Source: Propionigenium maris DSM 9537
Lineage (GTDB): Bacteria; Fusobacteriota; Fusobacteriia; Fusobacteriales; Fusobacteriaceae
Reading direction: 5' to 3'
Assembly (NCBI RefSeq): GCF_027925155.1
Contig: NZ_BSDY01000004.1
Coordinates: 212,284-276,283 of the forward strand
Length of the DNA: 64,000 bases
In this document: piece by piece, positions 46,244 through 49,629 of the stretch
How positions within the stretch are numbered: the stretch's first letter is position 1
How the letters are laid out: the number at the start of each line of letters is the position of its first letter
Notes under the pieces: generated by a model
What the model was told of the DNA's origin: nothing
Database searches by the model: none
The model's input: only the letters and a program-made list of their open reading frames with translations
Position numbers and translations under genes: made by a program

Positions 46244-46549
46244 TTATTTATTATAAACAGATGCTATTGAACTCTTCTTTACAGTAAGTTTCACACCTTT
46301 ATCTACTCTTATAATTACAAACTCATCTGTTACCGATGCTACATCTCCCTTGATTCCCCCTGCAGTAATAACTGGAGTTCCTTCTTGAAGGCTGCTCATC
46401 ATCTCCTGGTGCTGCTTCTGCTTCTTCTTATTTGGTCTTATAAGCAAGAAGTAAAATACTGCTCCCCAGATAGCTAAGGTAAAGATCATTCCTGTGTAAT
46501 TGGCCTTTGCGGCACCTTCAGCGGCATAAACAACGAAATTATTTAACAT
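46244..46549 (-). CDS. yajC: Preprotein translocase subunit YajC
   Basis: A 101-residue single-pass membrane protein. Membrane helix TGMIFTLAIWGAVFYFLLI, then RPNKKKQKQHQEMMSSLQEG and VITAGGIKGDVASVTDEFVI. It associates with SecDF. Usual length; own terminator. Confidence 0.95.
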   Translation of the reverse strand: MLNNFVVYAAEGAAKANYTGMIFTLAIWGAVFYFLLIRPNKKKQKQHQEMMSSLQEGTPVITAGGIKGDVASVTDEFVIIRVDKGVKLTVKKSSIASVYNK

Positions 46550-47838: not shown

Positions 47839-48708
47839 TTATAGACTTACTTGTATTCGGAGTACTCTAGAAAATTCCTCACCCTCTGTCAGTCTTTCTA
47901 TTCCGTATTTCTCCTCTATCTTCCCGTTGCTCTTAGCAAAATCCGCTATTCCGCACCATGGCTCGATACAAACATAGTCCGCCCCTGGAACATTCCAAAA
48001 TGCTATAAAGGGGAAACCTGTATAGTCCACTGTTACACTTCTCTTATTTTTTTTATTTTTCAGGCTAACCCTCTTAGAGGCCAGCCCCTCAAACATAATT
48101 GCATCCTCTATAAAGGTGTCCTTCTTGAGATTTATCCTTCTTCCCTCCAGGTAATCCACCCTCTTATCCCCTATATACATCCCCTCCAGGGTATAGGTCT
48201 TAGCTTCCTCCTCCTTTTCAAACTCCAGGTAGTAGTCTGAAAACTCCACATCTTCATCTGTAGGTGTGGCAAAGGCAGGGTGTCCCCCAAGGGAAAAGTA
48301 GATCTCTCCCGAGGTTTTGTTTACCACCCTGTATTCCATGATGAGTTCGCTTCCCTCAAGGGTATAGGTAATGTAGAACTCAAACTCAAAGGGATAGTTC
48401 TCCAGGGTCTTCTTGTCTGAGGAGAGCTTGAATACTACCTTCTCCCTCGAGCTCTCAGCCACCTGAAACTCCATGTCCCTGGCAAAGCCGTGCTTGCTCC
48501 CCCTATACTCCACTCCACGGTAGGTGTAGGTATCGTTTTTTACTCCCCCTACAAAGGGGAAGAGTACCGGCGAGGTCTTTCCCCAATACTCTGGGTCCCC
48601 GCTCCACATAAACTCCTCATTATCTTTAAGGAGTCTCAGGTTTTTAAGCTCCGCTCCCTTGGATTCTATCACTGCTTCCAGTATCCCGTTGTCTATCCTA
48701 TACAGCAT
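47839..48708 (-). CDS. Aldose 1-epimerase family protein
   Basis: A 289-residue galactose-mutarotase-like beta-sandwich protein (TSPVLFPFVGGVKNDTYTYR, GSKHGFARDMEF, GGHPAFATP, EPWCGIADFAKS). The His in KHGFARD and HPAF and the Glu in CIEPWCG match catalytic positions. Substrate unknown. Its ATG follows directly on the TAG of the upstream alkyltransferase gene. Confidence 0.9.
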   Translation of the reverse strand: MLYRIDNGILEAVIESKGAELKNLRLLKDNEEFMWSGDPEYWGKTSPVLFPFVGGVKNDTYTYRGVEYRGSKHGFARDMEFQVAESSREKVVFKLSSDKKTLENYPFEFEFYITYTLEGSELIMEYRVVNKTSGEIYFSLGGHPAFATPTDEDVEFSDYYLEFEKEEEAKTYTLEGMYIGDKRVDYLEGRRINLKKDTFIEDAIMFEGLASKRVSLKNKKNKRSVTVDYTGFPFIAFWNVPGADYVCIEPWCGIADFAKSNGKIEEKYGIERLTEGEEFSRVLRIQVSL

Positions 48709-49173
48709 CTACTTCTCCTTCTTCTCTAGTTTTAGCAGGTATTCCTTTCTCCACACACCTGCTCCGAATCCCGTAAGTTTACCCGACTTACCTATTACTC
48801 TGTGTCAGGGTACCACTATGGATACGGGATTTTTTCCGTTGGCTCCCCCCACTGCCCTCACAGCCTTGGGATTTCCTATGGCATCTGCCTCCTCTGAATA
48901 GGAGATAGTCTCCCCATAGGGGATATCATACATCGCCCTCCAGCAGGACCTCTGAAACTCCGTTCCTCCCCTGAGGTCTATCTTCACTGTAAACTCAGTT
49001 CTATCCCCCCTGAAGTACTCCTCTAATTCCTTTTTGCATTTGAGTACCTCGGGACTCTCTATCTCCTCTCCCCGGATCTCGTCCAGAAAGTAGATTCCGC
49101 TTATTCCATCTGTCTCCTCGGTTATCTCTATATAGCCGAGATATTCATGTTTCAGGTATACCCTTCCCCTCAT
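48709..49173 (-). CDS. O6-alkylguanine-DNA alkyltransferase, probable selenoprotein (TGA = Sec123)
   Basis: The protein reads MRGRVYLKHEYLGYIEITEE to FQRSCWRAMYDIPYGETISY, AIGNPKAVRAVGGANGKNPV, SIVVP, then TGA (48805-48807), then HRVIGKSGKLTGFGAGVWRK and EYLLKLEKKEK. Total 154 codons before TAG, the normal Ogt/MGMT length. TGA stands exactly at the alkyl-accepting Cys of the family motif PCHR. The frame beyond it is intact and conserved, and a SECIS-like hairpin follows. I therefore read TGA as selenocysteine: the selenol would take the alkyl group from damaged guanine. A nonsense mutation is the alternative. It lies with no gap between the GNAT gene and the epimerase gene. Confidence 0.85.
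48773..48804 (-). promoter_or_regulatory. Candidate bacterial SECIS element
   Basis: After the TGA come 13 nt and then the perfect stem GTAAGT / ACTTAC enclosing loop CGGGTAA. The loop Gs are 21-23 nt downstream of the TGA. Stem, loop size and GG in the loop agree with the known bacterial SECIS pattern. Confidence 0.7.
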
Positions 49174-49629
49174 CTATACTCCCATCTTCTTACTCATATA
49201 TACGTCTGTTATATCATATCCCATCTTCCTATAGAGGGCTATTGCCCCCTCATTGTACCCAAAGGAGTGAAGGTTTACCTTCTTGGCATCCAGGTTCTCT
49301 GCCATCTCCTCTAAGAGCTCCACCATATTGATCTCATAGTCCTTCCCCTTATACTCATCGTAGATGAGGTAGTTGTTCACATAGATGGTATCGTTGAAGA
49401 GATTAAACCACACAAAGCCCACCTTGTCTATATCCTTGCAGATATCCAGGAGATAGTGGTGCTTGGTTTCTACCCCGTCCTTTAATATATTGTCCAGGGT
49501 TTCCTTGGCAAGGTCTATGGCGTCCCCCTCCTGCCAGTGTCCTACCTTTATCTTATCCTGGGCGTAGTCCCTTATCATCCTTCCCTTTATAACGTCGAAT
49601 TCCTCCTGAGTCATCTTCACAAGTCTCAT
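49174..49629 (-). CDS. GNAT-family acetyltransferase
   Basis: A 151-residue GNAT protein. Acetyl-CoA-binding region follows KGKDYEINMVELL; C-terminal LHSFGYNEGAIALYRKMGYD is typical. Substrate unknown. First gene of the three-gene operon ending in the epimerase; its stop codon touches the start of the alkyltransferase gene. Confidence 0.88.
   Translation of the reverse strand: MRLVKMTQEEFDVIKGRMIRDYAQDKIKVGHWQEGDAIDLAKETLDNILKDGVETKHHYLLDICKDIDKVGFVWFNLFNDTIYVNNYLIYDEYKGKDYEINMVELLEEMAENLDAKKVNLHSFGYNEGAIALYRKMGYDITDVYMSKKMGV

Follow-up and report, generated by a model that had tools for sequence, protein, structure and literature searches.

A DNA alkyltransferase gene of the Ogt/MGMT family in Propionigenium maris DSM 9537, found in a 64,000-nucleotide stretch of the genome (hereafter the window), carries an in-frame TGA at the position of the catalytic cysteine codon, an observation made in a preliminary description of this DNA and confirmed here. 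The gene would count as a selenocysteine (Sec) variant of the O6-alkylguanine-DNA alkyltransferase (Ogt/MGMT) family; comparative sequence evidence makes it very likely (a probability of roughly 0.87) that the TGA is read as Sec, which is predicted to serve as a single-use alkyl acceptor. The earlier interpretation of the gene as a probable selenoprotein is supported by this evidence, and a sequencing error, a pseudogene, or a change of genetic code is very unlikely. The features discussed below are collected in Table 1.

Table 1. Position of the alkyltransferase gene, its in-frame TGA and hairpin, and the abutting genes in the window.
Feature	Position in window	Strand	Basis
GNAT-family acetyltransferase gene, abutting upstream	49174..49629	(-)	PF00583, 32.6 bits
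Ogt/MGMT-family alkyltransferase gene	48709..49173	(-)	PF01035, PF02870 and TIGR00589 matches; fold model
In-frame TGA at catalytic-cysteine position	48805..48807	(-)	Alignment with family; kept in Fusobacteriota relatives
SECIS-like hairpin, 6-bp stem, 7-nt loop CGGGTAA	48773..48791	(-)	bSECIS geometry; codon conservation
Aldose 1-epimerase-family gene, abutting downstream	47839..48708	(-)	PF01263, 98.9 bits

The frame reads SIVVP-TGA-HRVIG and consists of 122 codons, the TGA, 31 sense codons, and a terminal TAG; insertion of Sec at the TGA would give a product of 154 residues with Sec123. Translated through the TGA, the frame yields a protein that matches PF01035 with 112.4 bits (curated cut-off, 27 bits) over residues 72-151, a match that spans the TGA, as well as the N-terminal domain PF02870 with 36.1 bits (curated cut-off, 21 bits) and TIGR00589 with 114.5 bits; the claims that the TGA occupies the catalytic position and that the 31 open codons behind it keep the C-terminal sequence of the family are both borne out by these matches. 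In alignment with Ogt sequences of solved structure, the TGA coincides with the Cys in the family motif PCHRV, which is retained here as P-TGA-HRV with the Cys codon exchanged for TGA. A search with a 35-nt motif describing the TGA form gave a single match in the window, and 100 shuffles gave none. Counted by residue offset along the match to human AGT, Asn115, Sec123, His124, and Glu150 correspond to Asn137, Cys145, His146, and Glu172 of human AGT. Asn115, His124, Glu150, Tyr92, and Arg106 are invariant across 53 aligned Sec forms (taken from 62 non-redundant ones), most of which were found with a search motif that required the Asn and the His and left Tyr92, Arg106, and Glu150 free. An AlphaFold2 model (U entered as Cys; alignment of the 53 Sec-form sequences) reached a mean pLDDT of 94.6, and its closest solved folds are M. 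tuberculosis OGT (4wxd, 4bhb), the C-terminal part of E. coli Ada (1sfe), and human AGT (1eh6), which have the fold and the PxHRV motif in common with the window protein but carry a catalytic Cys where Sec is predicted. As the gene is the sole PF01035 match in the genome (a 4.1-Mb draft of 60 contigs; completeness 100, contamination 7.64), the cell would have no other enzyme of the alkyltransferase family than its product.

The genome also has the machinery that such a reading demands, the presence of which had been proposed as a check. Contig C7 holds selD (with an in-frame TGA of its own), selA, selB, and yedF in a row, together with two tRNA-Sec genes (46259-46348, L010; 75537-75626, L009). 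In-frame TGA codons also occur in grdA and in the PF07355 frame of grdB (541 bits; L130, contig C10, around 154993-156900), so that at least four genes of the genome (alkyltransferase, selD, grdA, and grdB) contain one. Given the in-frame TGA in both grdA and grdB, glycine/sarcosine/betaine reductase is likely made. Among the 37 non-overlapping window ORFs of at least 150 codons, TGA is a rare stop codon, serving in 2, as compared with TAG in 18 and TAA in 17; beyond the two TGA ends, the frames run on for no more than 1 and 13 codons.

Within Fusobacteriota, 82 of 98 genomes match the family, and the in-frame TGA is present in seven of the 82, namely the window genome and six genomes of genus g14; the two remaining g14 genomes (62% and 76% complete) gave no family match. 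No TGA was seen inside other family matches of the phylum, among the matches listed. The frame past the TGA is open in all seven TGA genomes, and of 23 non-TGA loci fetched, the 19 that could be parsed have TGT or TGC as the site codon (the other four were unparsed). The gene thereby shows the pairing of an in-frame TGA with Cys in homologues that is expected of a selenoprotein, and TGT or TGC in all close relatives, which the preliminary description had named as damaging to its claim, is not what the comparison shows. A sequencing error at 48805-48807 was likewise considered and rejected, given that the TGA recurs in six further Fusobacteriota genomes and in family members of seven other named phyla and that, among the 120 best database proteins, 30 end or show Trp there. 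Three of the g14 loci (L021, L022, and L023) match loci from the broader scan described below (L092, L069, and L099, respectively) in the printed protein end and the downstream DNA.

The reported gapless packing of three genes holds to the nucleotide: the GNAT frame ends at 49174, the alkyltransferase ATG begins at 49173, its TAG occupies 48711-48709, and the next ATG lies at 48708. The gene order in the window is GNAT, TGA form, aldose epimerase, and then dnaJ. In the Ilyobacter-type loci L024 and L025, the Cys form is flanked by a GNAT gene and dnaJ; this orthologue (database namesakes P0011, P0016) is 64-66% identical and adjoins the GNAT gene as in the window, but it has TGT at the site, lacks the hairpin codons, and is followed directly by dnaJ rather than by the epimerase gene. 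Because GNAT and dnaJ flank the Cys form in L024 and L025 and are also present in the window order, the comparison is read from gene order as an in-place swap of Cys and TGA. The aldose 1-epimerase gene that separates the alkyltransferase from dnaJ in the window is absent at that place in both Ilyobacter-type loci. Among the g14 loci listed, the neighbour genes differ.

The hairpin that had been proposed to act as a SECIS element is present, and its geometry and distance fit, but its energy misses the criterion of the published bSECIS model. The stem pairs GTAAGT (48791-48786) with ACTTAC (48778-48773), and the loop (48785-48779) starts 19 nt past the TGA. As given in a review, the bSECIS model specifies a loop of 3-9 nt, an upper stem of 4-16 bp, a distance of 16-37 nt from the UGA, a G within the first two loop positions, and an energy of -7.5 kcal/mol or lower, and some selenoprotein genes fail it (PMC13188914). 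The window hairpin falls within this geometry, with a stem of 6 bp, a loop of 7 nt that has G as its second base, and a distance of 19 nt, but it reaches only -6.6 kcal/mol (-6.0 in the g14 locus L022); the energy limit is reached by five other Fusobacteriota Sec forms and by 59 of 62 Sec forms overall, although it discriminates poorly because 16 of 17 GC-richer Cys paralogues reach it too. Against synonymous resampling, no energy signal was found in the window (z 0.01, at -4.5 kcal/mol for a stretch of 30 nt), and the six further Sec forms of Fusobacteriota do not stand out either (z -0.25 to -0.91); the 62 Sec forms have a mean z of -1.53, with p up to 0.05 in 27, as compared with z 0.01 and none of 19 for Fusobacteriota Cys forms and z -0.6 and 3 of 17 for Cys paralogues. 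Hairpins of at least 6 bp with SECIS geometry are present in 56/62 Sec forms, 5/19 Fusobacteriota Cys forms, and 7/17 Cys paralogues, and also follow 308 of the 2046 TGA triplets that the window contains across all frames of both strands. By itself the hairpin is therefore weak evidence, in view of the z of 0.01 and the frequency of similar hairpins after window TGA triplets; it is its conservation that carries weight.

That conservation is evident at the nucleotide level. The 23 nt from codon +4 to the stem end are identical in six genomes, and L023 differs by one loop base. Over codons +4 to +12, codon identity among the seven Sec forms is 0.91 vs 0.56 elsewhere, a value as high being obtained in none of 20,000 draws (p 5e-5), whereas the same codons in seven Cys forms give 0.65 vs 0.50 elsewhere (p 0.13). 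Between the window and its six g14 relatives, pS is 0.76-0.94 and pN 0.10-0.17 in the 60 codons before the TGA, and pS is 0.69-0.98 and pN 0.09-0.16 in codons +13 to +27; synonymous sites are near saturation, yet the hairpin nucleotides are kept. Across the 27 compared codons after the TGA, pN (0.05-0.11) lies far below pS, which denotes strong purifying selection. Ser in place of Asn at codon +7 (GKSGKLTG vs GKNGKLTG) was considered as a mark of the Sec form and discarded, as the Cys forms P0005, P0007, P0008, and P0010 also have Ser.

The TGA form extends well beyond this phylum. A motif scan of a species-genome collection (84,980 species by its own description), with a motif that demanded the Asn, returned 60 loci, of which 59 are family members with TGA at the site (three being the same as g14 members) and one, L049, is a chance match outside the family. 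By the taxa in the record titles, the 59 comprise Planctomycetota (14), Bacillota (12), Nitrospirota (8), Nitrospinota (8), Chloroflexota (4), Thermodesulfobacteriota (4), Fusobacteriota (3), and Tectimicrobiota (1), with five assigned to no phylum; the TGA form thus spans at least eight phyla. The selB and copy-number comparisons used 50 of the 60 loci (L049, L065, L069, L089, L092, L095, L099, L101, L102, and L106 being omitted). A selB match above cut-off is present in 44 of these 50 genomes, vs 2 of 14 control genomes and 52 of the 98 Fusobacteriota genomes; of the six without one, G107 has a partial selB-like frame below cut-off, and among the seven Fusobacteriota TGA genomes the only exception is G058 (76% complete). 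Each of the 50 genomes has exactly one TGA copy of PF01035, which is the only PF01035 match in 27, although many of the 50 are drafts that may hide further copies. Of 148 Nitrospirota genomes sampled, 136 contain a family member, and among the matches listed the TGA form occurs in eight; seven of these are genomes of motif-scan loci, and the remaining one, G215 (L131), is apparently the one that carries L101, so that the family search yielded no new Sec form among the matches listed. Viral contigs gave no match to the TGA-form motif.

A FastTree phylogeny of 352 sequences (64 Sec, including two Trp-read entries; odd-numbered proteins above P0262 and truncated database entries excluded) implies 22 Cys/Sec changes, or at least 20, 13, or 7 when branches below a support of 80, 90, or 95 are collapsed. 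P0005, a Cys form, groups with eight Fusobacteriota Sec forms with a support of 88, and the Sec form L023 lies outside with a support of 97; P0005 may possibly represent a Sec-to-Cys reversal, a kind of event that a review describes as rare, with FdhA and SelD as the main documented cases (PMC13188914). For the tree, energy, and hairpin sets, 68 TGA genes were parsed and six omitted to leave 62 Sec forms: L049 (chance match), L017 (the window itself), L069, L092, and L099 (repeats of L022, L021, and L023), and L105 (cut by a contig end). Twenty Cys paralogues, part of 25 non-TGA PF01035 rows from TGA-form genomes, were taken for comparison, three of which were unparsed.

A selenoprotein MGMT is a kind already known. 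Methylated-DNA-protein-cysteine methyltransferase is listed as a predicted selenoprotein (ABB14497) in two reviews, both of which cite a 2007 paper for the prediction (PMC9312934; PMC13188914), and a 2008 ocean survey lists one Sec-containing MGMT-type sequence (PMC2398784). The listed protein and the window gene belong to the same family (COG0350/PF01035), a comparison made with the listing; as regards lineage, the string "Fusobacteri" was not found in the main text of PMC13188914. A term search of the deep-Sep main text revealed no mention of methyltransferase or MGMT (PMC12013277), and among the open-licence papers listed, none was seen to describe experiments with a naturally occurring Sec alkyltransferase. 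Judged from that literature, the lineage, the breadth, the sole-copy status, and the repeated Cys/Sec switching are counted as new. An engineered counterpart has been described: human AGT with Sec145 protected E. coli from MNNG, and Sec145 made Asn137 dispensable (PMC4150793). Both proteins place Sec at the alkyl-acceptor position, but the engineered Sec was inserted through an amber codon and EF-Tu (PMC4150793), whereas SelB and a hairpin are proposed for the window gene. Although dispensable in the engineered protein, the Asn is kept in the seven Fusobacteriota and eight listed Nitrospirota Sec forms; the former were found without the Asn requirement, as was L131, and the idea that natural Sec forms would have lost it received no support.

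Two alternative readings of the TGA itself have to be weighed. Were it a real stop, the gene would be decaying or would encode a 122-residue product without an active site, and it is true that TGA ends two of the 37 long window frames and that database entries end at this codon. The 120 top-ranking proteins retrieved with the window query comprise 28 that terminate at the Pro preceding the TGA, 2 with Trp at the site, 89 with Cys, and 1 that was unparsed, and entries ending at the Pro account for 4 of the best 120 for a Nitrospirota query and 26 of the best 120 for a Planctomycetota query. The gene is thus commonly stored as a shortened protein. A real stop is nevertheless highly improbable, since the codons behind the TGA are under strong purifying selection, the frame is open and the TGA conserved in seven genomes, and its nearest relatives, which share the gene order, are Cys forms of full length. 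Even less credible is a reading as Trp, by which the product would be an alkyltransferase-like (ATL) protein that marks damage for other repair. ATL proteins have Trp at the Cys site, two of them (3gva and 3gx4) are among the weaker fold matches to the model, and the database proteins P0001 and P0002 show Trp there; these two entries are most simply explained as gene calls made under a TGA=Trp code, other frames of the window do stop at TGA (as the few codons open beyond its two TGA ends attest), the genome has tRNA-Sec and selB, and the protein has the full two-domain form.

With the TGA read as Sec, the most probable course of events follows that of the Cys family. SelB and Sec-tRNA would decode the UGA with help from the hairpin, and the protein would flip out O6-alkylguanine; the selenolate of Sec123, beside His124, Asn115, and Glu150, would then accept the alkyl group, by which the guanine would be repaired and the protein spent in its Se-alkyl form, as with Cys145 of human AGT. 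Single use of the Sec is carried over by analogy with the Cys family. Sec has a pKa of 5.5 vs 8.6 for Cys and is largely ionised at neutral pH (PMC4150793); the selenolate would therefore need less help from its neighbours. That the natural Sec forms keep these neighbour residues points to a conventional active site in which the nucleophile is improved, not to new chemistry. A further reading, to which only a slim chance is given, holds that the Sec form is a catalyst that passes the Se-alkyl group to a cell thiol or another acceptor and turns over. By general chemistry, a selenoether would be cleaved more easily than a thioether, and such turnover would fit the TGA form being the sole PF01035 match in 27 of 50 genomes and the 7 to 22 Cys/Sec changes, in which Sec was kept or regained despite its cost. 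The residues at the site, invariant across the 53 Sec forms, are those of the single-use Cys family, however, and neither a further acceptor motif nor a partner gene was seen. If turnover were true, many lesions would be repaired per molecule and selenium would make a suicide protein a true enzyme, which would account for the repeated trade of Cys for Sec and for life on a single copy.

Oxidoreductase selenoproteins reuse their Sec. The majority of selenoproteins with known function are of this type (PMC2398784); here, the Sec is predicted to be an alkyl acceptor spent once, at the price of one selenium atom per damaged base. Protein databases contain many such repair proteins ending just before the active site. 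Lastly, the breadth of the TGA form, its sole-copy status, and the switching between Cys and Sec would together provide a natural test of the benefit of Sec in a non-redox nucleophile.
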